Made by a program: the position numbers and the translations under genes. 38,738 nt of DNA, from IMG/VR virus record IMGVR_UViG_3300035698_017387, positions 1 through 38,738 of that record, one strand, 5' to 3'. The notes beneath the pieces are model-generated. The model was not told the origin of the DNA, ran no database searches, and worked only from the letters and a program-made list of their open reading frames with translations. Shown here in pieces: positions 13,325-38,225 of this stretch (positions are counted from its first letter, which is position 1; each line of letters starts with the position of its first letter). The stretch is from a virus.

Positions 13325-15697
13325 ATGAACCAGAAAAAAGTCACATACTTGAGCAAAGGCGCCCGCGTCCGTGTCGCCAATAGTGGACACGACGACGCCG
13401 GCCGTTGGCGCCAGGGCCTGACCGGCACCGTCCAGGCCACACCCGGCCCGCGAGGTCCCTGCGTCGAGGTCCTGGTCGACGGCGAGGCCGTGTCCCGCCT
13501 CATCCCCTGGGCCGACGTCGACCATAAAGAGGCGCCCAAAGGCCGCGAGGTCCAGATCGCGATCTTGGATATCCGCCCGAGCCGTTGGCAATATCGCCAG
13601 GCCTTTGACGCCGGCGAGCTCCTCGAGCTTGCCAAGTCTATTGACGCCCAGGGCCTGATCAATCCCGTTTTGGTTTTCAAGCATGAAACCGGCGCCCACT
13701 ATGAATTGATCGCCGGCGAGCGCAGAACCCGCGCCCTGGTTGCCCTGGCCCTGGTCGACGCCGGCGAGGAGCACAAACTTGCCCAGGCCATCGGCAAGAC
13801 GGCCGCCGGCGATTATTGGATCTGGCCGCCCGACGTCAAGGAAAATATAGACCTGACCGTCCGGGCCGAGGTCCGCGAGGGCGCCCCTGAGTCGTTCCGC
13901 GAGATCGTCGTCGTCGAAAACTTGCAGAGATCCAACCCGACGGCCGTCGAGGAGGCCCAAGCCTATCAGTCATTGATCGAGGCCGGTTATACACAAAGCC
14001 GAATTGCTGAGCGGTTGACCAAGTCGCCGGCCTATGTATCCCAACGGTTGGGCCTCTTGGCCCTGGCTGAGCCAGTCCGGGCCCTGGTTGGGACCGCGAT
14101 CCCGTTTGCCTCAGCCCGAGCGATCGCGACCCTGCCCGCGGCCGTCCAGCCGGCCATAGCTGATCACGTTATCGAAAAAATGAGCCGCGAGGGCGAGAGC
14201 CCGGTCACGACTCGCCAGGTCGAAACCCTCGCGCGCCAGGTCCTAAAATTCCTAGATCCTGAGACCTGGGCCATACCCGAGGGCGAGATCGTCGAGGCCC
14301 AAACCCGAAACCGGATCCGCATGATCCGGCACTATATCGAAACCCTGAGCGAGTCCGCCAGCGGAGAGCTTATAGTCGGCCTGAGAGAGTCCCAAGTCTA
14401 CCCCACCTATAAGCACCCGGAAAACCTGATCGGTAACAAACCGCTGAGCATTGCCGGAAACACGACCAAGCTCATGATCGTGATCGCGGCCCTGACCGGC
14501 ACCGGCACCGAGACCGGCATCGCTGAGCTCGGTAAAAAGGGCCATTGGCCCACGGCGGCCACGGCCCACGGTTGGACCTGTTCCGATTGCCAGTATAGCC
14601 AAGCCCGCAAACCGTCGACCTTGCGATCGGTCCGTTGCCAAGCCTGGCTCGACCTCGCCGGCGCAAAGCCTCGCGAGACGTGTATCCACTATATAGGGCC
14701 CGAGGATCCGGTTATACTCCAAGTCGACTCGGTTGACCGTTGGCAATTAAAAGGGATCGGCCTCGACGGCGAGCTCCTGGACGGTGGCTTTTTTTTCTAT
14801 ATGATCGGGTTTGAGCCCTGGGCCCTGGCCCTGGAGGCCATAGAGGCCCACGTCGACAAGGGCCGCGAGGGTTACGTCAAGGCCAGCGAGGAGGCCCACT
14901 TACCAGATCTAGAGGCCTTTTGGCAACTGCAAACGGAGGCCGGCCAGGCCCTGGACGTCGACCCGGACCATACCCAGGCGCACAATTGCCGGCTGTGTAC
15001 CAACTACCGGCCCGAGCTCCTGGAGACCGGCGAGCCGGCGCCCTGCCTCCTGGTTATTGAGCCCATCCGGCGGCCCTTCCAGGCCATCACCGAGGCGCCG
15101 GCCGTCGGCGTCCTGGTTAACCAGGCCGGCGCAATGATCCCCCGTTGTGCTGAGTATATGGCCACCGAGGCGCCCACGATCGCGCCCTTGCCTGGTTTTC
15201 GGTTTGGTGAGGATAACCGGCCGATCGTGTTGGCCTGGCTCGAGCGGGCCTTGTGGGTTAAAGGCCGGGCCGCCGATCGAAATGGGACCCTTGTCGCGCC
15301 CTTGTCCTGGATCCCGATCGCCCGTAAGCCAGGCGACGATCGTATCACTGGCCAGGTCCTGGCCTGGGTTAATGACAACTGGCAAGATATAGGCGGAGAT
15401 CAGGCCGTCGCCCGGCTGATCCAGGTCGCGACCTGGGAAACGGCCGCCCTGGTTGGCCAGGTCTCTAAAATCCCGCTCTTGGACCCCATCACCGGCGAGG
15501 CTGAGACCTGGGCCGCGCCGCCTTGGGCCGCCGTCCGCCACGGGGCCGCCGATTTTGCTCAGCCATTTTATACCCAATACCCGGCCGCCTGGCCCAAGCC
15601 CTGGGCCCAGGTCGAGGAGCAGGGCACCGGTAAGATCCTGGAGGAGGAGCTCGAGGCCCTGGAGGAGGAGCTCGAGGCCCGGCGCGTCGAGGCCTGA
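13325..15697 (+). CDS. Large ParB-family protein with Cys-rich C-terminal region
   Basis: A 790-residue protein, two to three times the length of typical ParB. Residues about 10-60 look like a small SH3/KOW-type domain. The ParB nuclease/CTPase fold follows (about 78-205) with GERRTRAL at 131-138 and ENLQRSNP at 198-205, then a helix-turn-helix (about 222-243, YTQSRIAERLTKSPAYVSQR). The long remainder has two Cys groups (CSDC with later Cys; CRLC with later Cys) and ends in an acidic coiled coil. No ParA gene is present. It may bind the palindromes at 15699 and 32434 and act in partition, replication or regulation. The start has GAGAGGAGATCAAGAA. Confidence 0.85.
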   Translation: MNQKKVTYLSKGARVRVANSGHDDAGRWRQGLTGTVQATPGPRGPCVEVLVDGEAVSRLIPWADVDHKEAPKGREVQIAILDIRPSRWQYRQAFDAGELLELAKSIDAQGLINPVLVFKHETGAHYELIAGERRTRALVALALVDAGEEHKLAQAIGKTAAGDYWIWPPDVKENIDLTVRAEVREGAPESFREIVVVENLQRSNPTAVEEAQAYQSLIEAGYTQSRIAERLTKSPAYVSQRLGLLALAEPVRALVGTAIPFASARAIATLPAAVQPAIADHVIEKMSREGESPVTTRQVETLARQVLKFLDPETWAIPEGEIVEAQTRNRIRMIRHYIETLSESASGELIVGLRESQVYPTYKHPENLIGNKPLSIAGNTTKLMIVIAALTGTGTETGIAELGKKGHWPTAATAHGWTCSDCQYSQARKPSTLRSVRCQAWLDLAGAKPRETCIHYIGPEDPVILQVDSVDRWQLKGIGLDGELLDGGFFFYMIGFEPWALALEAIEAHVDKGREGYVKASEEAHLPDLEAFWQLQTEAGQALDVDPDHTQAHNCRLCTNYRPELLETGEPAPCLLVIEPIRRPFQAITEAPAVGVLVNQAGAMIPRCAEYMATEAPTIAPLPGFRFGEDNRPIVLAWLERALWVKGRAADRNGTLVAPLSWIPIARKPGDDRITGQVLAWVNDNWQDIGGDQAVARLIQVATWETAALVGQVSKIPLLDPITGEAETWAAPPWAAVRHGAADFAQPFYTQYPAAWPKPWAQVEEQGTGKILEEELEALEEELEARRVEA

Positions 15698-25103: not shown

Positions 25104-25526
25104 TTAGGCTGAGCTATAGGTCGTCCGGACCTCTATACTGGCCGAGGAGAAAGTCGCCTCGAGCTCGACCGGCGCGTTATATTCGATCGTTTGCGGCCGG
25201 GTTAACATAGTCGCATCCGAGACCGTGATCAACGGCTTGGAATGGACCTTGCCCTCAGGGTAGATCGTCAAATCGTGCTTGTCGCCGACGTCAAACGTCA
25301 GCAAACCGGCCGCGCCGCCGGCCTCATCCAGACAGGTATAGGCCACGGCGCAAGAGGCCGCGCCGGTCACCCCCTCCAATTGTTGGATCTGTGTGTCGTC
25401 CTTATGGGTTACGTCCATAAGGTTTGGCTCGGCCGCCTGAGGCGAAACCGAAACCTTGCGGCCCTGTCCTGAAATGTCAACATCGTTATACTCGACTGTC
25501 AAAGCCGATCCGCTGTACTCAGCCAT
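25104..25526 (-). CDS. Major tail tube protein
   Basis: A 140-residue beta-rich protein (SALTVEYNDVDISGQGRKVS, ending VELEATFSSASIEVRTTYSS) encoded just before the chaperone pair, the standard position of the tail tube subunit. Start has GGGAGGG eight bases upstream. It begins inside the last codons of the glycosyltransferase-like gene. Confidence 0.8.
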   Translation of the reverse strand: MAEYSGSALTVEYNDVDISGQGRKVSVSPQAAEPNLMDVTHKDDTQIQQLEGVTGAASCAVAYTCLDEAGGAAGLLTFDVGDKHDLTIYPEGKVHSKPLITVSDATMLTRPQTIEYNAPVELEATFSSASIEVRTTYSSA

Positions 25527-26241
25527 CTTGTAAACCCTCCCTCAGTTTGTCTTGTTGGCGATATATGTCGCCCATTGTCCAACCATAGGCCCCATAATGG
25601 ATCAGGGCCACGTCACGATCGACCCCAGTCCGGGCGCCGAGGTCTAAAGCCTGTTTGAAAAAGTATATATCTTGACTATTGCCGGCGATAATATGAAACC
25701 AGGAAAACCGATCCGGATCGTTGCCGGCGAGCATAGACTCGAGCACCCACCGACGGATCAAGACCAGGCCCAGGGCCGCGCAATCATACGCCTGAGTCCC
25801 TGACCGCTCGATCGCCATCAAATCTTTTTTACAGAGCATTTCGCCACCGGGCGCCTGGCTGATAAAGTCGACGCCCACGGCCGACGCATCGCCGCGCCGG
25901 TTGGGATAAGAGGCGCAAACGATATCAAACCCGAGGTTGGCCGGTTTGTTTCGCAATGTCCGAACTGCCTCGATCTCGCCGGCGTGATCATCCTCGATCA
26001 TACACAATGTATCTTTGCCCGAGGCCAGAAACTCACGGACTAGGGCGTCGTGACCGTGAGGTATAATCAGATCGGCCGGCACATCTGGCCAATTGAGAAA
26101 CTGATCGCCCTTGTCAAAGCCGGCGAGGAGCAGTCCAGACCACCAACGCCAGAACTGCCACACCGGCCGAAAGTAAATACAACCAAAACCGAGCTCGCCG
26201 AAAGAATCGCCCGCCCTCAGCAAACGGTCATTATCCGCCAT
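25519..26241 (-). CDS. Glycosyltransferase-like protein
   Basis: A 240-residue protein with features of GT-A-type glycosyltransferases: strand-helix N-terminal half leading to DTLCMIEDDHAGE, where E83-D-D-H86 occupies the metal/nucleotide DxD position, and a C-terminal SQDIYFFKQALDLG with HYG, a pattern seen in phage and bacterial GT2-like enzymes. It overlaps the methyltransferase gene upstream and the tail tube gene downstream. Virion or host-glycan modification is likely, but substrate is unknown. Confidence 0.65.
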   Translation of the reverse strand: MADNDRLLRAGDSFGELGFGCIYFRPVWQFWRWWSGLLLAGFDKGDQFLNWPDVPADLIIPHGHDALVREFLASGKDTLCMIEDDHAGEIEAVRTLRNKPANLGFDIVCASYPNRRGDASAVGVDFISQAPGGEMLCKKDLMAIERSGTQAYDCAALGLVLIRRWVLESMLAGNDPDRFSWFHIIAGNSQDIYFFKQALDLGARTGVDRDVALIHYGAYGWTMGDIYRQQDKLREGLQDG

Positions 26242-26776
26242 CGGTCACCCTCACAAAGGCCCGGAGCGAGTCCGGCGCCCCGAGCTCGAGCCAACCGTCC
26301 CAGGCGAAACCGTCGACGGCCTCTTTAACGCCCTTTGTCCAGGGTAGACGGGCGCCGCCGTAATCGTGAAACGCGATCACGCCCGAGACGTGAGGCCGCC
26401 AGGCCTTGACGTCGGCGATAACGGCCGGCCGACTATGATCGCCGTCGACAAAGAGAAACGCGATCGGGCCGCCGTCCCAGCACTCGGCCGCTATCTGGCT
26501 GTACGCCTCGACCAGGGCCGCGCCCGGATCACCCTTGAGCCTCGAGACGTCCAGGTCGACGCCCACCAAACGGCCGCCAGGCGCGCCGGCCCGCGAGCAA
26601 TGTAACGATCCGCCCTCGCCGATCCCAATATGAACCATGACCGGGCCGGCCTCGACCTGGGCCGCCTCGAGCTCGGCCTCCAGGCCCGCGCAGGTCTCAC
26701 AAATCCAAACCCGCTCGGCCATAGTCAAAGCCGCGCCAGGCGCCGTCAAATAATCCGGCTGTTTTTTCTTGGCCAT
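26231..26776 (-). CDS. SAM-dependent methyltransferase
   Basis: A 181-residue class I methyltransferase. I start at the ATG at 26776 (GAGGGG ahead). Motif I is IGIGEGGS (residues 50-57), the acidic ribose-binding residues are in VGVDLD (72-76), followed by FLFVDGDHS (108-115) and AFHDYGG (136-142), which match the Methyltransf_24-type families acting on sugars or small groups. A CETC pair lies near residue 26. Lying between tail completion and glycosyltransferase genes, it may methylate a glycan added to the virion. Confidence 0.8.
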   Translation of the reverse strand: MAKKKQPDYLTAPGAALTMAERVWICETCAGLEAELEAAQVEAGPVMVHIGIGEGGSLHCSRAGAPGGRLVGVDLDVSRLKGDPGAALVEAYSQIAAECWDGGPIAFLFVDGDHSRPAVIADVKAWRPHVSGVIAFHDYGGARLPWTKGVKEAVDGFAWDGWLELGAPDSLRAFVRVTDGG

Positions 26777-26778
26777 TA

Positions 26779-27177
26779 TCACCCCTCGGTTGTCACCGTC
26801 GCGACCGCGGCCCAGTATCTTTGACCGCTGATCGTGACCTCATCGAGTCCAATATCCCAATCCGGCACAATAGAGCCCACCACACCCAGGCCCTCGAGGG
26901 CCGCCTCGAGGGCGTCCATAAGGGCGATCGAGGCCTCATAATTGATCGGCTGAGTCGCTTGTCCGGCCTTTTCCACGGCGATCACCAGGTCGACCGTTAA
27001 CCTTTTCCAAGTCGAGTCGCCCTTGTGCAAGGCCCGCCGCTCGCCGGCCGGAAACTGGGCAAACTGAGCCGGTAACGTGCTGAGCTTGACCGGCGGCCCT
27101 TTTGAATGTCGTACAGTACAACCCGAAACCTCGAGGGCCTCGAGCGTATTGATAAAAGCCGCAAACGTCAACGCCAT
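26779..27177 (-). CDS. Tail completion / tail terminator-like protein
   Basis: A 132-residue protein after the gp10-like and connector genes. It has TWKRLTVDLVIAVEKAGQAT, then IALMDALEAALEGLG and a beta-rich end (ISGQRYWAAVATVTTEG), fitting the small alpha/beta tail terminator family of siphoviruses. It would cap the tail and join it to the head. Assigned from position and pattern. Confidence 0.65.
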   Translation of the reverse strand: MALTFAAFINTLEALEVSGCTVRHSKGPPVKLSTLPAQFAQFPAGERRALHKGDSTWKRLTVDLVIAVEKAGQATQPINYEASIALMDALEAALEGLGVVGSIVPDWDIGLDEVTISGQRYWAAVATVTTEG

Positions 27178-27181
27178 TGTC

Positions 27182-27772
27182 TCACCTCGGGATCCGCCGG
27201 ATCTTGTTTCGATAATACCGGATCACGGCCCAAACGTCGGCCGGCGTTCCACCTGGCACCCGGAGGAGGCCGAGCTCGGCGTCGCCCACCACATCAAAGG
27301 CGCCGGTATCTTTGACCTTGTCCAGGTATTGAGCCAGTCGCTTTGTTGCGTTCACAATGTCCACCGGCGCCGCGGCCGAATAGGCCCACTTGCCGGCGAC
27401 CGTGATCGCGTTTTCGGGCGACTCATCAAACGTCCAGGCCACCGAGGCGCCGCTCTTGAGCGTGATCGCGTGAAACGGGCCGGCGTTCCTTGGCTCGGTT
27501 ACATAGTCATCGCTTGAAACGACAACGGCGTCGCCGTTGGTAACCGTCCCGAGCTCGGCGCACAAGTGATCAAATACCAACTTACGGCCGGCGACGTCGG
27601 CGACCGCGTCCAGGTATCGACTCGTTTCGGACGCCTCAAAGGCGATCCCGATCTCATTGTCTAGCATGACCTGAGCCGTCGCGACAAAGATCGTTAAAAG
27701 GGCGTCGTTATCCGTTTCAAGAACTGGGATCCCCATAAAGACCTTGAGATCCGCAAAATTGGTATATGCCAT
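27182..27772 (-). CDS. Head-tail connector-like protein
   Basis: A 196-residue protein. The start MAYTNFADLKVFMGIPVLET, then DNDALLTIFVATAQVMLDN, is the opening of gp6-type connector proteins; the C-terminal part (VNATKRLAQYLDKVKDTG ... ADVWAVIRYYRNK) continues as helices. An extra beta segment lies between (about residues 60-135), making it longer than the usual ~100-residue family. It is encoded after, not before, the gp10-like gene, which is unusual. Confidence 0.7.
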   Translation of the reverse strand: MAYTNFADLKVFMGIPVLETDNDALLTIFVATAQVMLDNEIGIAFEASETSRYLDAVADVAGRKLVFDHLCAELGTVTNGDAVVVSSDDYVTEPRNAGPFHAITLKSGASVAWTFDESPENAITVAGKWAYSAAAPVDIVNATKRLAQYLDKVKDTGAFDVVGDAELGLLRVPGGTPADVWAVIRYYRNKIRRIPR

Positions 27773-27781
27773 CCAATCCCC

Positions 27782-28258
27782 CTATAATCGATCCATCAGC
27801 CGCTTGACCTCACGGTTAAAAATCGCCTCGACCCTGGGCCGGCTCGACCTGGCCGCCCGTCTCATATACCGGCGGCCCTTGATCCCGCCTTTCATTGCAA
27901 TGTAAAAGGCGACGTCGCGAGCTGTTAGACCTCGGCGCCTGGCCCAGGCCTCGAGGCGTTTTGACTGAGGATCTGGCCAATGTCGCGAGCCCTTGCCGGT
28001 CCCGTGTTCCATAAAGCCGGCATAATATACGCCGGTCCCGACGTTGCCCTCGGCACCCCTCGAGGTCGTCTTGACGCTAGAGCGGATCGACCGTCTCAGG
28101 GCGCCGGTATCGGACGGCGCCCCGTCTCGGGCCGCCCGTTGCACGATCCGCGACCCGCGCCTCACGGCCTGGATCATTGCCCGCCGGGCCTCGCTCGGAA
28201 ACCGGTCAAAGGCCCGCTCGAGCTCCTCGAGGCCCTGGATCCGGATCTTAAAAGCCAT
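27782..28258 (-). CDS. HK97 gp10-like head-tail protein
   Basis: A 158-residue basic protein with the gp10 pattern: an N-terminal helix (LEELERAFDRFPSEARRAMI), then DGAPSDTGALRRSIRSS and YYAGFMEHGTGKG, the family's best-known segment, and a basic C-terminus. It helps complete the head-tail joint or tail. Start has the GGGG tract just upstream. Confidence 0.85.
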   Translation of the reverse strand: MAFKIRIQGLEELERAFDRFPSEARRAMIQAVRRGSRIVQRAARDGAPSDTGALRRSIRSSVKTTSRGAEGNVGTGVYYAGFMEHGTGKGSRHWPDPQSKRLEAWARRRGLTARDVAFYIAMKGGIKGRRYMRRAARSSRPRVEAIFNREVKRLMDRL

Positions 28259-28291: not shown

Positions 28292-29059
28292 TTAAACCGG
28301 TAAATTATACCGGTTTGCGAGATACAATTCGAGAGATCGCCGCTCGCCCGCGCTGAGAGCTTTGTCATAACAGATAAACTCGGCAAAGTCACCTAAGAAA
28401 TTGCTACCAGTATTATCACCGACGTTATACCCGTTTAAGACCAGGTCGTCCGCATTGGCGACGAATGAGGCGCCAGTCCTGGAGGAGGTCAAAACACCGT
28501 TTAGATAGGCTGTGGCGAACAATGATTCTCTGTGCCATGATTGAACTTGCCAGGTTTGGTATAGTGCGTCGGACGGCGTCCCGGTATAATCCCCGTCACG
28601 GTTATAGACGAAAGAGGCTTGATCGCCATAATAGCCGTCGATCGAAAAATTGGCGTCGCCCTTGTCCAGCCAAACCGCCGCACCCTCGGTCTTGTTTGTA
28701 TACTTAACCACCAGGAAGGAAAAGTCAGAGTCAAGCCAATTCCCGATATTGCCGAATGTCAAAAAGTCGTCAAGCGATTCTACACGAACAACCGGTAAGC
28801 CATTGACGATCGGAGTCTTGAGCGTGCACCGTTTCCCATCGTTGGTTTGGGTAGCATCCCGCCCATTCCCTGACTTGTCGCCCCAGGCGCCAATAGGATC
28901 GCCATCACTTGCAGACGGTGTAGTCTTGGCCGCCTCTTGATATAAATTATCATCAGAGCGTAACCACAACCAAAGGCCGTCAACCTTGTCCGGTTGTTTG
29001 GCGACAATTTGGCCCGTCCGTTTCCTATGAGACCGGCTCGCCCTATGTACGTGAGTCAT
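28292..29059 (-). CDS. LamG/concanavalin-like lectin-fold protein
   Basis: A 255-residue protein with a concanavalin A/LamG-like pattern: GLWLWLRSDDNL, then GDKSGNGRDATQ, FSFLVVKYTNK, TWQVQSWHRESLFATAYLNG and FAEFICYDKALSAGERR. It is likely a virion surface protein that binds glycans. The first 20 residues are basic. The DNA is less GC-rich than the neighbouring genes, suggesting later acquisition. Its ATG overlaps the upstream stop (ATGA). Confidence 0.7.
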   Translation of the reverse strand: MTHVHRASRSHRKRTGQIVAKQPDKVDGLWLWLRSDDNLYQEAAKTTPSASDGDPIGAWGDKSGNGRDATQTNDGKRCTLKTPIVNGLPVVRVESLDDFLTFGNIGNWLDSDFSFLVVKYTNKTEGAAVWLDKGDANFSIDGYYGDQASFVYNRDGDYTGTPSDALYQTWQVQSWHRESLFATAYLNGVLTSSRTGASFVANADDLVLNGYNVGDNTGSNFLGDFAEFICYDKALSAGERRSLELYLANRYNLPV

Positions 29060-29435: not shown

Positions 29436-29969
29436 TTAAGAATCCCGCCTGTACCAGGCGTTTAAGTGTAGTTTTTCGTCATCGCCGGCCGCGCTGTTTA
29501 GACTGGTTGCGTCTGTATGATACCAAACAACCCACACCCCGGCCAAGGCGTGAAACGGGATCGCGATAGACTTAAAGACCAACCCGCCGTTGGCATCGCT
29601 GATCCAGTCCGCCGCCGCGATATCAACCATCCCGATCACCGTACCCCACTCGGCCGCGTTTAAAGCTGTATCCCCGACCGCGACCGCTGGATCCGCATCC
29701 AAAAAGATCAGCGTTCCGGACGGCGTCTGAATCGCGCCAGATCCTGACTCAGAACTTCTTAAAATCAAACTCAAAAACTCGCCCGAATAAGTCCCGCCGA
29801 AGGCCAACGGGCCCGAGGCCGAAAAGTCATATTGATCGACCTGGTCATCCAGGCCCACCACCTGAGATATACCGATCTCAGAGATCGGCGTCATTGGCGC
29901 GACCTTTTTCGCATACTCGCCCGATCCGAGCTCGCGATAACCCTGATCGCCTAGCTGTTTATCTGACAT
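29436..29969 (-). CDS. Hypothetical late protein, possible virion component
   Basis: A 177-residue protein; the ATG at 29969 is set by GGGAGGG seven bases upstream, although the frame is open further. It has a beta-rich body with GPLAFGGTYSGEFLSLILRS, then IPFHALAGVWVVWYHTDATS, and ends LNAWYRRDS. It may be a head or tail decoration protein. It starts three bases after the stop of the CHAT-like gene. Confidence 0.6.
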   Translation of the reverse strand: MSDKQLGDQGYRELGSGEYAKKVAPMTPISEIGISQVVGLDDQVDQYDFSASGPLAFGGTYSGEFLSLILRSSESGSGAIQTPSGTLIFLDADPAVAVGDTALNAAEWGTVIGMVDIAAADWISDANGGLVFKSIAIPFHALAGVWVVWYHTDATSLNSAAGDDEKLHLNAWYRRDS

Positions 29970-29971
29970 AG

Positions 29972-30547
29972 TCAAACCCTCCCGAACTGTTGAAACTGGA
30001 GCGCATCCCGAGCCGCGGCCCGAGCTTTTGCGCCATAACTGGCCACCGTCGCGATCCGCGTCCGGGCCCTGGCCAGGGCCAACGATCGCCCCACGTCCAG
30101 GCCCAGGGCGAGGCCTCGCCTCAGCCATTGGCCGAGCAGACCGGCGCCCATCACCGAGGCCGCGCCGGCCAGGTTGGGCCCGCCGCCGGCCACCACCGCG
30201 CCGGCGCCGGCGTCCAAAAGGGCCTCGAGCATTGGCGCATAGATCGGCCCCTCGGGCCCTGGGACCTCAGCCAGGCCGGCCAGGAAACACGACGGCGAAA
30301 ACACCACCGCGCCGCCCAAGTCCGCCGCCCGGACATGGACCTCAGTCAGGGCCTCGCGGCCGTCGTCGCCATACCAGGCCCGGCCAGCAGGTCGACCGTG
30401 TAGGTCAAACCATAACAGATCCTGGCCCTCGAGCCAGGCCGGCATAAAGGCCGCCGAGCTTGCCGGCGGACAGGTCACCGGCTCGACGCCGGCCGCCTTG
30501 GCCGTAGCCTCGCGAAACGACCACGCGCAATAGGCGAAAACTCGCAC
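29972..30547 (-). CDS. CHAT/caspase-like peptidase candidate in the late operon
   Basis: A 191-residue protein, started at the GTG that overlaps the previous stop (TAGTG); a TTG start eight codons earlier is possible. The sequence follows the order of clan CD peptidases of the CHAT type: a strand and His-Gly (LLWFDLHG, His50), a strand ending in Ser-x-Ser-Cys (AVVFSPSCFLAG, Cys87), then MLEALLDAGAGAVVAGGG and a closing helix GRSLALARAR. CHAT peptidases such as separase-like and Craspase-type proteins use this His-Cys dyad. No sensor or partner domain is fused to it. It could process virion or host proteins; function is inferred. Activity and fold are untested. Confidence 0.55.
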   Translation of the reverse strand: MRVFAYCAWSFREATAKAAGVEPVTCPPASSAAFMPAWLEGQDLLWFDLHGRPAGRAWYGDDGREALTEVHVRAADLGGAVVFSPSCFLAGLAEVPGPEGPIYAPMLEALLDAGAGAVVAGGGPNLAGAASVMGAGLLGQWLRRGLALGLDVGRSLALARARTRIATVASYGAKARAAARDALQFQQFGRV

Positions 30548-31425
30548 TAGGGCGCGCCTATAACCAACCAATGGACGACGACGTCGGTCTCAGTCGCGGC
30601 CGTGACAAAGTCATCTTGCCAGGCCTTGACCGTGCAAGCATTGGCCGCGACGGCCGTCGAAACGTGAGCCGCGTCGCCGGCGCCGGCCTCGGGATCCTCG
30701 CCCAATGTCGCCAGGCAAAAGGTAACCGTCGTTAGACCATGCGCCGCGACGGCCGTACCCGTGATCAAGTCCGAACCATAGACCGCTTGCTGTCCAGAAC
30801 TCGCGAAACCGACAGGGTATAGATCACTGGCCCCATACTGGAGCGTTCCCGTTATATCGACATTGCCATTGACCGCCAGGCCCGATCCGCTGGTATCATC
30901 GATCGTATCGGCCGCGATCGTCGAGCCGGCCAAGGCCGTGAAAGTGTTAGCCGTCATCTGAAAGTCATCGGCGCCGGCGATCTCGATATCGATCTGATCG
31001 TCCGTGTCAGCGGTTATACTTGTGTCGTCGTCGGCGTCCAGATCGATCTTATTGGCCTCGACAGACAAGATCGCCGCTGTAAAAACATACTCATTGGCGC
31101 CGCCGATCTCGAGATCGACCTGATCGTCCGTATCGGCTTGGATCGACGTATCGCCGTCGGCGTCCAGGTCCAAGAGGCCGCCGTCAAGATCGACGCCTGA
31201 GCTCAAATCCGTAGTCGCGCCGCTTTGCAAATCAAAGGTCGCGCCGCTTTGGATCTCGAGCTCGCCGCCCGTACCGACGATCATCTTTGTTCCGCCCGGC
31301 TCGATATAGACCGGCACCGAGGCCGAGCGTTCGACGGGATCCTCGCCGCCGCAGGCCGCCAGGGCCAGGGCCGCCAGAACCAAAACCAGAACCAACACCA
31401 AACCAAAACCTTTGTTAAGCCTCAC
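30547..31425 (-). CDS. Lipoprotein with duplicated acidic beta repeats
   Basis: A 292-residue protein with GTG start and GAGGGGG upstream. A signal sequence (LVLVLVLVLAALALAAC) ends in a lipobox with Cys25. The mature part has QSGATFDLQSGATTDL beta repeats and two copies of a 40-odd residue unit, DLDADGDTSIQADTDDQVDL ... and DLDADDDTSITADTDDQIDI ..., the acidic turns perhaps binding calcium. It ends in a more globular C-terminal domain. A lipid-anchored protein in a capsid operon is unusual; it could be displayed on infected cells, and its neighbour is the CHAT-like gene. Confidence 0.65.
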   Translation of the reverse strand: MRLNKGFGLVLVLVLVLAALALAACGGEDPVERSASVPVYIEPGGTKMIVGTGGELEIQSGATFDLQSGATTDLSSGVDLDGGLLDLDADGDTSIQADTDDQVDLEIGGANEYVFTAAILSVEANKIDLDADDDTSITADTDDQIDIEIAGADDFQMTANTFTALAGSTIAADTIDDTSGSGLAVNGNVDITGTLQYGASDLYPVGFASSGQQAVYGSDLITGTAVAAHGLTTVTFCLATLGEDPEAGAGDAAHVSTAVAANACTVKAWQDDFVTAATETDVVVHWLVIGAP

Positions 31426-31971: not shown

Positions 31972-32412
31972 TTAGGCCGTACCCTCAGCCGGCCCGACGT
32001 GAGTCTCGAGCGTGACCCCGGTCGCCTGGGAAACTGGCGCCTTGGCCGGCCCGTACTGGTGATATACCGCCGAGGAGATCACGGCGTTTTGAGTCGCCCG
32101 ATCGACATACAGGCGAACATATCGCTTTGTCGGGCGATAAAGGTCTATAATAAAGACCTCCTCGTCGTCGTCGTCGGCGATCGTCTGCCCGGTCCCGAGC
32201 AGATCGGCCGCGTCCGAGAGATCCGACTCGTCGCCTTGCTGAGCCTTGATCGAGGTAACGGCCGAGCCCGTGATCGCACCCATGACCACTTCCATCGCGA
32301 CCCCGTCGAACCCTTGCATATCCAGGGCGACACCCTCGATATCAGTCGAGCCCGCGGCGCCGTTGGTCACCGTGACCGCAATCGTTGCCTTTACGTTTTT
32401 CCCGAAATTCAT
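31972..32412 (-). CDS. Head decoration-like protein
   Basis: A 146-residue beta-rich protein directly after the major capsid gene. I use the ATG at 32412, seven bases after GGGAGGG, instead of an in-frame TTG two codons earlier. It has VKATIAVTVTNGAAGSTDIE, an acidic segment (TIADDDDEEVFIIDLY) and RYVRLYVDRATQ. Position and size fit a capsid-stabilising decoration or head fiber base protein; the family is not certain. Confidence 0.6.
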   Translation of the reverse strand: MNFGKNVKATIAVTVTNGAAGSTDIEGVALDMQGFDGVAMEVVMGAITGSAVTSIKAQQGDESDLSDAADLLGTGQTIADDDDEEVFIIDLYRPTKRYVRLYVDRATQNAVISSAVYHQYGPAKAPVSQATGVTLETHVGPAEGTA

Positions 32413-32433
32413 TGTCAAACCCTCCCTTGAACC

Positions 32434-34426: not shown

Positions 34427-36475
34427 CTATCCGGCCGCGACCATACAATCGCACCCTTTATGAGCCGGCGCGTGTCTGATCGGTTTGGCCGTCGTCAAAG
34501 GTCGCTCGGCGCCGTCCGGCTCAAACTCGGCGCCGGCCTCGATAAAGGCCTCATGTATGCCCACGACCTGGCCATTAAGGGCCGAGCAATAAGGGCACGA
34601 TTTACCAAAGGCGACCCACCGAAAGACCACGATCCCGGCGCCAATATAGACCGTCCGAGCCAGGGCGTTATTAAACCGGACGCCCTCCTCGAGGGCCTCC
34701 TCGCGAGGCCGGCCATCGCGCCAATGATCGAGCTCAGCCAAGACCGGATCGGTCCAATCCTCGCCGGCGTCCAGGGCCTGGCGGAGCAGGTCGCGGATCC
34801 GCTCCTCAGACCGGATCGCGTGTCGGCTTGCGTAAGCCTCGAGATATCTTTGGACAAACCGCTCGAGCTCGGGCGTGAGCTCCTCGATCGCCTCGCCGAG
34901 CTCCTGGCCAACCACCTTGGCCACATTGGCGCCATAAGAAAAGGCCACCGGGGCCACCTGGGCCGCCGTAAAATTCCTATGTTCGGTATAGAACTCCTCG
35001 AGCCACAGAACAAACATACCCGGATCCGCGGCCCTGGTTTTGGCCGCCTTTTTAACCGCGGCCGAGACGTCGTTAACCTCGCGGCGCACTACCCGGCCGA
35101 TCGCGTCGTCGTAAAGCCCGAGCGAGGCCCTCATCAAACGGTGCCGCTCGGTTGCTGAGCGTTGGGCCCTGACCTCGGCCGGCGCCATAATCCGGGCCAG
35201 GCCCTCGATCGTACCCTCAGCCAGGGCCCGATCATCGCCGGCGCCTGAGCCAGGGCCCAGGGCCAGGCCGGCCGATCCGGCCGGTATCATGTTTAACGGG
35301 ACCAAATACTCATCACCGCCGTCAATCGGATCCAGATTCTCGCGGGCCCGGATATCATTGGCCGACAACCAACCCCATTGGCGCCCGATCGAATAGGCCG
35401 AATACCGGCTCGCCGTGTCACCCCGGAGCAAAGACTCGACCAGAAACTCGGCATAATACCGGGCCCGCTCGCTCGGCAATAATAGCCGCAAGGCGATCGC
35501 CTGTTCTGCCCGCCTCAGCCAGGACCCCAAAGAATAGGTCACAAAGTCGATCCCCTGGTGTTCTATATTGGAAAAGGTCGCCCGCTCGAGGTCCTGGATC
35601 ATATGAGGCGGGATCCGGAAAAGGCGCGCGATCTCGTTTGTCTGGTATTGGCGCGTTTCCAAGAACTGGGCCTCGTTTGGCGGGATCCCGATCGTCTCGA
35701 CGCTAAGGCCCTCCTCGAGGATCCCGACCCTATGAGACCGATCAAGTCCCATATGTCGATCTTCCCAAGACTCTCTAAGTCGCTTGTGTGCATCCTCGGA
35801 CAGGTTGCCTGGGTGTTTGAGCAAAAAGCCAGGCCGGGCGCCGTCGCCGAAAAACCGGGCGCCGAACTCCTCGGCCGCCATAGTCAAGCCGATCGCTTGC
35901 CTGGCGAGCGTGATCGGCGAATAACCGACCAGACCGTCAAAGCCGAGGCCGTGCAAATGAAAGACGCGATCCGCGCCCCATACTCGAAACGTCCGGCCCT
36001 GGGCGTCAGGTTTGGCGAGTTTGTACTCGTAAACCAGCCGGCCGCCCTTGCGTGAGACTTGCATCCGATCCGGGCGCAATGGCCAAAGGCCCAAGACCTC
36101 GCCGCGGTTGTTATACTCGATCTCGGCGTATCCGTTGCCCCAGGTCGCGACGTGACCGATCAGCGTTTCCCAAAAAGTAAAGGCCGTTTGTTCGCTGTTC
36201 GGCGTATCGTGTAGCAAGGTATAGAGTCGATGATTGACGGCCCGTTTTCGGCCCTTGCCGGCCCGCTCATATAGATGACAAGGCAAAAAGGCCACACCCT
36301 CAGCCAGGACCCGGACGCAAGCATAAACGGCGACGACCTGGAGCGATCCTTGAGTCGAAACGGCCGCCCCGCTCGCCGTACTGGCGCCAGTCAGTTTGTC
36401 GACCCACCCCGGCGGAGTTTGCGAGATCTTATACTCTTGATCCCGAAGTCCTAAAATGCCAGATAAGAGACCCAT
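34427..36475 (-). CDS. Portal protein fused to a MuF/SPP1 gp7-like domain
   Basis: A 682-residue protein; I use the ATG at 36475, overlapping the upstream stop (TAATG). Residues to about 420 are an HK97-type portal (ERAGKGRKRAVNHRLYTLLH, GYSPITLARQAIGLTMAAEE, FRIPPHMIQDLERATFSNIE). The C-terminal part, after a linker and helical region, ends with the MuF signature: FRWVAFGKSCPYCSALNGQV and, near the end, HKGCDCMV. Portal and MuF-type head morphogenesis proteins are usually separate adjacent genes; here they are one. It forms the DNA entry vertex. Confidence 0.85.
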   Translation of the reverse strand: MGLLSGILGLRDQEYKISQTPPGWVDKLTGASTASGAAVSTQGSLQVVAVYACVRVLAEGVAFLPCHLYERAGKGRKRAVNHRLYTLLHDTPNSEQTAFTFWETLIGHVATWGNGYAEIEYNNRGEVLGLWPLRPDRMQVSRKGGRLVYEYKLAKPDAQGRTFRVWGADRVFHLHGLGFDGLVGYSPITLARQAIGLTMAAEEFGARFFGDGARPGFLLKHPGNLSEDAHKRLRESWEDRHMGLDRSHRVGILEEGLSVETIGIPPNEAQFLETRQYQTNEIARLFRIPPHMIQDLERATFSNIEHQGIDFVTYSLGSWLRRAEQAIALRLLLPSERARYYAEFLVESLLRGDTASRYSAYSIGRQWGWLSANDIRARENLDPIDGGDEYLVPLNMIPAGSAGLALGPGSGAGDDRALAEGTIEGLARIMAPAEVRAQRSATERHRLMRASLGLYDDAIGRVVRREVNDVSAAVKKAAKTRAADPGMFVLWLEEFYTEHRNFTAAQVAPVAFSYGANVAKVVGQELGEAIEELTPELERFVQRYLEAYASRHAIRSEERIRDLLRQALDAGEDWTDPVLAELDHWRDGRPREEALEEGVRFNNALARTVYIGAGIVVFRWVAFGKSCPYCSALNGQVVGIHEAFIEAGAEFEPDGAERPLTTAKPIRHAPAHKGCDCMVAAG

Positions 36476-36639
36476 TATTTTTGTTTGCCCTCCACCGCTC
36501 GATTGATCAGACCGGCCAGGGCCAGGATCAACAGAAGGGCGCCTATAACAATCAAGGCCAACGGCGGCCAAAACCACCACAAACCGGCCGCCAGCAAGAC
36601 CAGGCCCAAGATCGCGATCACGTCCAGCCGCTCGATCAT
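36475..36639 (-). CDS. Small two-TM protein between terL and portal
   Basis: A 54-residue protein, start at 36639 overlapping the terL stop (ATGA) and stop overlapping the portal start (TAATG). It reads MIERLDVIAILGLVLLAAGL, then WWFWPP and a second hydrophobic stretch ending NRAVEGKQK: two membrane helices with a short turn. The overlaps on both sides argue it is translated. Function unknown; a late membrane role such as lysis timing is possible. Confidence 0.65.
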   Translation of the reverse strand: MIERLDVIAILGLVLLAAGLWWFWPPLALIVIGALLLILALAGLINRAVEGKQK

Positions 36640-38225
36640 AGACTCAGGATCCCCCGTTGCTCGTAGACTGATCCGTCCGGTTGGCCCCTATGTCGGATCG
36701 CCCGGTCGAGGCCCATTATCCCCGCGACCATACCGTCGATTTTTTCCCGACTCTTGAGCTTGTTTGGTTTGACGTTGCCGGCCGCGTCCTGGGTTACGAC
36801 CATATTATCGGCCATCCATCTTAAAACCTTATGCCCGCCGTGAGCGAGTTTGTTATCTAAAGTCAGCCTGAGGAGCTCGCTTGTCGGTTGGCTCATAGAG
36901 GCGAACCCCTGGCCAAACCCGATCATTTCAAAGCCGGCGCCCTCCAATTGTCTTGACACCTGAAAAGCACCCCACCGGTCAAAGGCGATCTCGCGAATAT
37001 TGAAACGGTCGCCCAGGGCGATCACGTCGGCGACGATCTGATCAAAGTCTATGACGTTTCCCTCAGTCGCCGTGATCAAGCCCTCACGGACCCAAAGATC
37101 ATAGGGAACCCGATCGCGCCGCGCGCGTTCGATCATGTTTTCCTCTGGTATCCAGAAATGAGGTAACCAGAAAAACCGCTCAGCCTCATCGCCCTCGCTT
37201 GCAAAGGTCAGGACAAAACTCGCAATATCATAGGTCGAGGCCAGGTCCAGGCCGCCATAACACTTTGCACCCTCGAGCAGTCCCTCGGCCATTGGCGCCC
37301 CGCACTTGTCCCAATCCGCCATTGGTAACCACCGGCTATCCTGTTGCGTCCAGACGTCCAAATGTAACCTTAAAAACGTATTGAGATACGCTGGCGTTAA
37401 AGCCGCCTTGCGGGCCTGGGCCGCCATGTAATCAGGTTTAACCGAGATCCCAAAATTTGGGTTGGCCTGGGCCCAAGCCTCAGGTTTTGTCCAATAGTCT
37501 GGATCCTCGGCGAGCTCCTCCTCATCTACGGCGGCGATATAGGCGAAAAAAGACTCATCCTCGACAATACCGGCCAGGACCTGGCGCGCCCGTTCGTGAT
37601 ACTCCCAACAAATCGACTCGCGATCAAATCCGGCCGTCGTAATCAAAACCGTTAACGGTTGGCGCCTGGCGCCCGTCGAGGTCGTCAAAACGTCGACCAA
37701 ATCACGGTTTGGCTGAGCGTGTAGCTCATCCACAACTACCCCGTGAGCGTTTAGGCCGTGTTTGGTATAGGCCTCGGCCGATAGCACCTTATAAGAGCTC
37801 GACGTCGCCGGCGCCACGATGGATCGTTTATAGACTCGGGCCTCACGGTCCAGGGCCGGCGAGGCCTTGACCATATCCTTTGCAAGACTATGGACGATCG
37901 CCGCCTGATCCCGATCCGCGGCCGCGCTGTAAACCTCGGCGCCTGGCTCGCCATCGGCAAAGAGCAGATAAAGAGCGATCCCGGCCGCGATCGAGCTCTT
38001 GCCGTTTTTCCTCGGGATCTCGATATAGGCCTCGCGATATCGCCGCGAGCCGTCGGCCTTTTTCCAGCCAAAGATCGGCTCGATAATTTCGGTTTTTTGC
38101 CAGCCCGCGAGCTCAAAAGGCCGGCCGGCCCACTCGCCTTTGATATGAACCAGGACCCGCGCGAAAAAATTGACAACGCGATCGGCGGCCTCCTGGTCAA
38201 AGTAGAACTCGGGCGCCTTTGTCAT
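36636..38225 (-). CDS. terL: Terminase large subunit
   Basis: A 529-residue HK97-type terminase large subunit. The ATPase domain has Walker A PRKNGKSS (about residues 71-78) and Walker B GVVVDELH (162-169). The nuclease domain begins near CYGGLDLASTYD, whose Asp is a metal ligand. ATG overlaps the terS stop (TAATG). It packages DNA into proheads and cuts it, with terS and probably the HNH protein. Confidence 0.95.
   Translation of the reverse strand: MTKAPEFYFDQEAADRVVNFFARVLVHIKGEWAGRPFELAGWQKTEIIEPIFGWKKADGSRRYREAYIEIPRKNGKSSIAAGIALYLLFADGEPGAEVYSAAADRDQAAIVHSLAKDMVKASPALDREARVYKRSIVAPATSSSYKVLSAEAYTKHGLNAHGVVVDELHAQPNRDLVDVLTTSTGARRQPLTVLITTAGFDRESICWEYHERARQVLAGIVEDESFFAYIAAVDEEELAEDPDYWTKPEAWAQANPNFGISVKPDYMAAQARKAALTPAYLNTFLRLHLDVWTQQDSRWLPMADWDKCGAPMAEGLLEGAKCYGGLDLASTYDIASFVLTFASEGDEAERFFWLPHFWIPEENMIERARRDRVPYDLWVREGLITATEGNVIDFDQIVADVIALGDRFNIREIAFDRWGAFQVSRQLEGAGFEMIGFGQGFASMSQPTSELLRLTLDNKLAHGGHKVLRWMADNMVVTQDAAGNVKPNKLKSREKIDGMVAGIMGLDRAIRHRGQPDGSVYEQRGILSL

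Follow-up and report, generated by a model that had tools for sequence, protein, structure and literature searches.

A putative clan CD peptidase in a phage head operon and the neighbouring anchored proteins it may release

We describe a predicted phage-encoded cysteine peptidase of clan CD (Cys87/His50). It is probably a dedicated enzyme that frees one or two adhesin- or fibre-like proteins, encoded by neighbouring genes, from their membrane anchor by a cut after the arginine of a short motif. Its gene belongs to the head operon, read on the minus strand, of a 38.7-kb virus record, the whole of which was analysed (38,738 nucleotides, termed the window). The computed evidence comprises the fold, an invariant catalytic dyad, a conserved pairing with a partner gene, the motif, the association of motif and peptidase, and covariation at residue 48. 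Precursor processing by clan CD peptidases is known; what is new is a phage cassette of peptidase and proposed substrate, a pair of enzyme and target described in none of the databases used. A clan CD peptidase as a gene of a virion operon was found neither in Pfam, NCBIfam, PHROGs and PADLOC nor in 50,697 phage records, and the literature searched yielded no phage example. For this family the likely substrates are encoded alongside the enzyme and a cleavage bond can be predicted; phages lacking the peptidase serve as natural controls, and one subgroup offers a natural variant of specificity.

Peptidase gene and operon

The peptidase gene (29972..30547, minus strand) encodes 191 residues and was assigned from its reading frame, its homologues, an AlphaFold2 model, fold matches and the invariance of His50 and Cys87. 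The preliminary description had proposed this reading frame, naming no strand, and its coupling to a lipoprotein gene; both hold, the GTG start codon overlapping by one base the TAG stop of an adjoining gene (30547..31425, minus strand) whose product bears a lipobox. This product, referred to below as the partner and proposed as the substrate, is a 292-aa anchored protein with a lipobox leader, solenoid-like repeats and a C-terminal domain, and a homologue lies upstream of the peptidase in most relatives.

The placing in a head operon behind capsid and decoration genes was likewise confirmed, all of the following genes being on the minus strand. On the 5' side are the small and large terminase subunits (the latter at 36636..38225, assigned by family and genome comparisons) and, by family matches, the portal protein (34427..36580), a prohead serine protease S78 which is the ordinary head-maturation protease of the phage (33737..34396) and an HK97-type major capsid protein (Phage_capsid PF05065, 32504..33721), followed by a capsid-associated, decoration-like protein (31972..32418) matching phrog_5707, found in the same post-capsid place in loci L002, L010, L032 and L035. 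On the 3' side, the next gene (29436..29969) encodes, according to sequence and family searches, a leaderless protein of no matching family; it occupies the slot held in other loci by a second anchored substrate, and the hydropathy-plus-motif scan described below found no combination of membrane anchor and Arg motif in it. Neck and connector genes come next, with PHROG matches to a neck/tail-completion protein (phrog_5, 27782..28258) and a head-tail adaptor (phrog_442, 27182..27772).

The accessory zone of the operon also includes a LamG/ConA-like protein (28292-29059, minus strand), related to a PHROG virion structural protein and present in L028 as well. Between connector and tail genes are a SAM-methyltransferase-like gene (26231-26782, minus strand) and a glycosyltransferase-like gene (25519-26241, minus strand), the latter called by eye only; a 790-aa ParB-like protein is encoded on the opposite strand (13325-15697, plus strand).

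Peptidase family and conservation of the dyad

Scans of the peptidase against Pfam, NCBIfam, PHROGs and PADLOC at E<=10 gave no match, tblastn against phage and plasmid records gave no useful match, with no phage record encoding a relative, and a plain single-sequence scan of viral contigs recovered no relative. Homologues were obtained when the collection scan was steered to the two catalytic windows by bait alignments containing invented variant rows; each match was then verified in a tblastn search that used the natural protein as query, and all later alignments and statistics used natural sequences only. The steered scan returned full-length homologues with 40-48% identity, and iteration brought the family to 35 natural sequences (28 clusters at 70% identity).

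His50 (codon CAC, 30398..30400, minus strand), within an L-H-G stretch, and Cys87 (codon TGT, 30287..30289, minus strand) are identical in 35/35 homologues, so that the conservation expected in the preliminary description was found. His50-Gly51, Cys87 and the C-terminal helical region are where it had put them; its Ser-x-Ser-Cys pattern exists in the window protein (Ser-Pro-Ser-Cys87) but is not a family feature, most homologues having Ala-x-Asn-Cys. Gly51 is also invariant in the family, as are Cys7, Pro27-Pro28 and Asn125 among 30 aligned homologues. With dN/dS values of 0.10-0.21 among close homologues, the family is under purifying selection. As judged from these alignments the His/Cys pattern is not a product of chance, because it is conserved in an independent family that was found afterwards. 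A catalytically dead clan CD fold serving as a structural or adaptor protein might be imagined, given that some cellular TPR relatives (L049, L052) have no Cys; against it stand purifying selection and a dyad complete in every phage member, and we consider this reading extremely improbable.

Fold and class of the peptidase

An AlphaFold2 model computed with 22 rows (22 homologues) reached pLDDT 91 and pTM 0.89, while single-sequence prediction was unusable (pLDDT 43). The model has the caspase-type alpha/beta sandwich of clan CD, with His50 following strand 44-48 and Cys87 following strand 81-84, which is the placing seen in this clan (HG after strand 3, Cys after strand 4). Structural comparison by VIA-align, and also Foldseek, ranked DdvA (Z 14.1), RgpB (14.1), Csx29 (13.9), separase (12.9) and SAVED-CHAT (12.6) at the top, followed by caspases (<10) and MALT1; in the RgpB match all 190 residues lie on catalytic subdomain B (4ief 372-570). 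Prediction thus recovered the caspase-hemoglobinase fold expected in the preliminary description, and the model supports a clan CD peptidase fold for the window protein.

The narrower label of that description, a caspase/CHAT-type enzyme, fared less well: clan CD stands, by structure and by the conservation of both catalytic residues, but the CHAT label does not. The scores for Csx29 and SAVED-CHAT do give the model the CHAT fold. However, Pfam CHAT (PF12770) did not match the peptidase, only one of 12 homologues reaching as little as E=0.09, and the protein is a single 191-aa domain with no TPR or sensor-domain fusion of CHAT type. CHAT was therefore rejected as a family name, since in addition the cellular proteins nearest to the family have TPRs and in several cases match Peptidase_C25. 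Nor was the protein classed as a gingipain: Pfam Peptidase_C25 gave no match to the peptidase at E<=10 and is matched by cellular relatives of the family alone, and the two-subdomain catalytic domain, Ig-like domain, prodomain and leader of gingipains are absent from the 191-aa protein, which corresponds to subdomain B only. Sequence profiles of the peptidase against the PDB gave chance matches only, and no PHROG, including those of head maturation proteases, matches it. From model and alignments we describe it as a predicted stand-alone clan CD peptidase with a C25-like catalytic subdomain, filed neither as CHAT nor as gingipain; the label follows from the fold matches together with the TPR relatives, in which LHG aligns and some of which hit Peptidase_C25.

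A partner gene conserved beside the peptidase

In relatives with upstream sequence, a homologue of the window's lipoprotein gene adjoins the peptidase. The pair is kept across phages whose portals are as little as 21-26% identical, and its placement varies. It follows the capsid gene in four loci (the window, L032, L033, L035), immediately precedes that gene in two (L034, L044) and stands ahead of both portal and capsid genes in L023; in L133 and L134 the partner is 3' of the peptidase instead of upstream. The view of the peptidase as a lone moron was dropped, the partner gene adjoining it in most relatives.

This arrangement bears on whether the enzyme could serve in virion maturation, with capsid or prohead proteins as its main substrates. 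S78 and U9/U35 proteases process such proteins, and the gene does lie among capsid, portal and neck genes; but the operon already has its S78 prohead protease, a search among capsid relatives found no peptidase gene, even in the close ones (L002, L003, L005 and L010), and the constant item is the peptidase-partner pair rather than the type of capsid. The role of main capsid protease was rejected as very improbable.

Partners share a conserved N-terminal part and differ between loci in their C-terminal domains. A hydrophobic leader, ending in a lipobox in about half of them, is followed by E-x-P-[VIE]-x-Arg-[STAG] and then by Y-x-E-Q-G-G and G-G-E-I-E-x-Q-S-G repeats. In the window, sequence and hydropathy scan place the leader at residues 1-25 (31351..31425, minus strand), with the lipobox LAAC25 at its end, and the proposed cleavage motif E28-D-P-V-E-R33↓S34 at 31324..31344 (minus strand; the arrow marks the bond). 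In an alignment of 19 partner sequences the Arg is kept in 18/19, and so, counted separately, is the Glu at P6. Two further observations concern single loci: in L114 (4901-6481), with a Gly48-type peptidase, the partner frame is broken close to a G homopolymer, by either a sequencing error or a real loss, and in L044 (7465-8523) a reverse-transcriptase-like ORF (RYMDD motif, by eye), perhaps a diversity-generating element, lies shortly upstream of the partner-peptidase pair.

The Arg motif accompanies the peptidase in two protein families

Partners were retrieved by a pattern lying downstream of the Arg, so the retrieval did not select for this residue. Where an Asp48-type peptidase is present the Arg motif occurs in 19/19 partners, whereas among 13 leader-bearing partners from records without the peptidase the canonical motif occurs in none, with loose variants in two, L003 (DAESR) and L097 (EEMPAAR). 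Fisher's test of motif against peptidase, scoring both loose variants as positive, gave 6e-7, a value that ignores relatedness; some records may also be fragments. L097 (IMGVR_UViG_3300017987_000015) has an Arg motif, EEMPAAR↓S, yet no family peptidase in its 69-kb record; a different protease may act there, or the peptidase gene may lie on a missing part of the record.

In the phages without peptidase, leaders resemble substrates of signal peptidase I or II and end near the same point (LAGC↓SYATLVY, AFA↓ADGYSTSIY), and leaderless partners start at P1' or within a few residues of it, with M-SYNTNVY (MSYNTNVY...) standing against R↓SYQTNVY elsewhere. When every reading frame was scanned for hydropathy plus motif, the peptidase loci (344 kb) yielded 30 matches and the control loci (290 kb) 4, and of these four controls L003 alone was a partner gene. 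The same scan exposed a second, unrelated family encoded 3' of the peptidase with the same kind of anchor and EEPVAR↓S (L013, L015, L023-L026, L036, L038 and L085, to which L031 was added afterwards); its leader-bearing members have the motif in 10/11 cases with the peptidase and 0/4 without, and distant leaderless members start directly at M-YGYESV. An exception comes from L132, where the leader of the second protein is not followed by the Arg. In L081 the intervening peptidase gene is missing, so that partner and second protein lie next to each other, and the Arg motif is gone from both. Chance was considered as an explanation of the motif and rejected.

These leaders also leave room for a reading in which peptidase and partner serve in lysis, at the cell surface or in superinfection, the cut of an anchored lipoprotein altering that surface or timing lysis with no part in virion assembly. 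The leaders have the look of true signals for export or lipidation, the proteins would face outward, and homologues in peptidase-less phages carry signal-peptidase-type leaders; leaderless homologues in head operons, however, fit virion proteins better, and the C-terminal domains are exchangeable, as in fibres. We regard such a module as possible though unlikely; the cleavage step is common to it and to our favoured explanation, the release of adhesin- or fibre-like proteins.

Covariation of residue 48 with the motif

The codon for Asp48 lies at 30404..30406 (minus strand), and covariation makes this residue, two before the catalytic His, a candidate determinant of P1 specificity (Asp where the substrate has Arg, Lys where it has Leu-Gly). 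In the eight loci with a Lys48 peptidase the partner has the Arg in 0/8 and Leu-Gly-[VTS] in 8/8 at the corresponding position after the leader (L209 DQIVALGVTHF, L208 EVPIALGTTHF, L210 EDEVVMLGTTNF). The comparison of Asp48 (19/19 with Arg) and Lys48 (0/8) gave a Fisher value of 4.5e-7, in which relatedness is ignored and the Lys48 members are one clade. Because of this clade (support 0.91), the tree counts the switch between Asp48 and Lys48 as one evolutionary event, Arg48 in L133 and L134 appearing as a second. From the alignments we infer that residue 48 reads the P1 residue of the substrate. Two loci with Arg48 peptidases (L133, 3525-4082; L134, 3484-4038) have the partner downstream and a different sequence behind the anchor (YLETRTEYQVMSVSGY), possibly a third specificity. 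Separase D2151 reads P1 Arg, TPR-CHAT has K670 in that place and Csx30 is cut after Leu407 (PMC9729208); the direction of the phage switch recalls this contrast between separase (Asp2151) and Craspase (Lys670), by analogy and at a different residue.

Association and covariation together bear on the proposal of a late role against the host, in which the peptidase would cut a host protein or disarm a defence and the Arg motif would be a host-protease site or have some other use. Clan CD peptidases do act in bacterial defence, as in Craspase (PMC9729208), and Chloroflexota genomes encode related TPR-C25 proteins that are possible ancestors or targets. But even in diverged phages the gene keeps its head-operon setting and its partner, and the motif goes with the peptidase in two unrelated families, is largely absent without it and shifts with residue 48; a site for a host protease is disfavoured because it would not depend on the phage peptidase. 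This alternative appears quite improbable, and a host-defence protease was considered and rejected.

Cellular relatives and probable host

The peptidase profile finds domains, with E down to 5e-22, in Chloroflexota proteins of 600-1000 aa, this being so for 31 of the 32 matching genomes among 400. Most of the large relatives tested have TPRs, and 3/7 hit Pfam Peptidase_C25 over the cut-off. LHG aligns between the phage peptidase and the Chloroflexota TPR proteins, and the Cys aligns in several. About 8% of 400 Chloroflexota genomes encode such large TPR proteins with a C25-like domain (L048-L066), some having no Cys.

The host is probably a member of the Chloroflexota, an assignment of moderate confidence made because one peptidase homologue lies on a Chloroflexi MAG contig, terminases 41-53% identical to that of the window occur in Chloroflexota genomes, and the closest cellular relatives come from this phylum, to which the profile search for them was confined. 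On the contig of homologue L044, a 549-aa ORF (L122, 1289-2938, minus strand; IMGVR_UViG_3300009494_000019) contains the fold once more in diverged form (FLHPN, VGACFG), in fusion with repeats, a membrane segment, a PKD-like region, a linker (TPTPTN) and a tail (YLPLVMRGY).

Proposed mechanism and its implications

The substrate precursor would carry an N-terminal leader by which it is either inserted into the membrane or lipidated there. The peptidase would then cut right behind this leader, following the Arg in the motif [E]-x-P-[VIE]-x-Arg↓[Ser/Thr/Ala/Gly], freeing a mature adhesin- or fibre-like protein whose N-terminus would match that of the leaderless homologues of peptidase-less phages. 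The main substrate would be the product of the upstream neighbour, joined in related phages by a second anchored protein encoded downstream, and Lys48-type enzymes would cut at Leu-Gly instead of after Arg. We liken this mode to gingipain R acting on fimbrial lipoprotein precursors (PMC4789730). That the partner is cleaved, that the cut falls at this bond and that the products are virion or surface adhesins we infer from motif, pairing and covariation. The preliminary description had offered three roles; maturation of a phage protein is now favoured, the coupled lipoprotein being the likely substrate, and nothing positive was found for host-factor cleavage or counter-defence.

Insertion of the leader with its basic N-terminus on the inner side would place the motif beyond the cytoplasmic membrane. 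Since the enzyme has no signal peptide, it and its site would have to meet before insertion, at lysis or via another topology. A broader picture, tentative and rather doubtful, is that in phages probably of Chloroflexota the fibre or adhesin precursors are held outside the cytoplasm and released by a gingipain-like peptidase, so that part of the virion or attachment apparatus would mature separately from the head, at the host membrane, with peptidase and substrates co-evolving through a specificity switch at residue 48.

If true, precursor processing of the gingipain type would extend to viruses, and the question would arise why structural-type proteins of tailed phages are exported and anchored; it would also make available a small protease that is site-specific for one of two motifs, EEPVAR↓S or, for Lys48-clade enzymes, VxL↓GxT.

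Comparison with known systems

The phage peptidase and the gingipains (MEROPS C25, RgpB) have in common the clan CD fold, as predicted, and the His/Cys dyad after strands 3 and 4. In Porphyromonas, gingipain R trims anchored fimbrial lipoprotein (pilin) precursors (FimA/Mfa) after Arg43-54, following signal peptidase II, which gives mature adhesive subunits (PMC4789730), and a like action is proposed here; RgpB uses Asp163 (PMC4357240). The phage protein differs in being phage-encoded and of one subdomain, with no prodomain, signal peptide, Ig-like domain or direct Pfam C25 match, and recognition in the phage pair would depend on an extended, specific motif in a substrate whose gene is linked to that of the enzyme, whereas gingipains have a broad secreted activity. 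Gingipains are strict for Arg or Lys at P1; for the phage enzyme the conserved partner motif suggests Arg. By sequence, the closest relatives found are the Chloroflexota TPR-C25 proteins (hmmsearch E about 1e-22), in which LHG aligns and, in several, the Cys; unlike the phage peptidase, they are host proteins of 600-1000 aa with TPRs and the extra N-terminal half of the C25 domain, some lacking the Cys.

CHAT peptidases (Csx29 of Craspase, SAVED-CHAT) resemble the phage enzyme in fold and in taking a substrate from a neighbouring gene, as CHAT peptidases commonly do (PMC9729208), and the Csx29/Csx30 pair, with a Lys near the S1 site and a cut after Leu (PMC9729208), resembles the Lys48/Leu-Gly subgroup. 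The phage peptidase has no TPR, no RNA or nucleotide sensor and no Pfam CHAT match, and its proposed role is maturation rather than defence. Separase (C50) has a similar fold and cuts after the Arg of acidic-x-x-Arg, read by an S1 Asp; it has no sequence match with the phage peptidase, whose motif is acidic at P5/P6 with Pro at P4 and for which another S1 position is proposed. The prohead protease S78 of the same operon is, like the peptidase, a phage-encoded processing enzyme among the head genes, and differs from it in fold, chemistry, substrate and timing.
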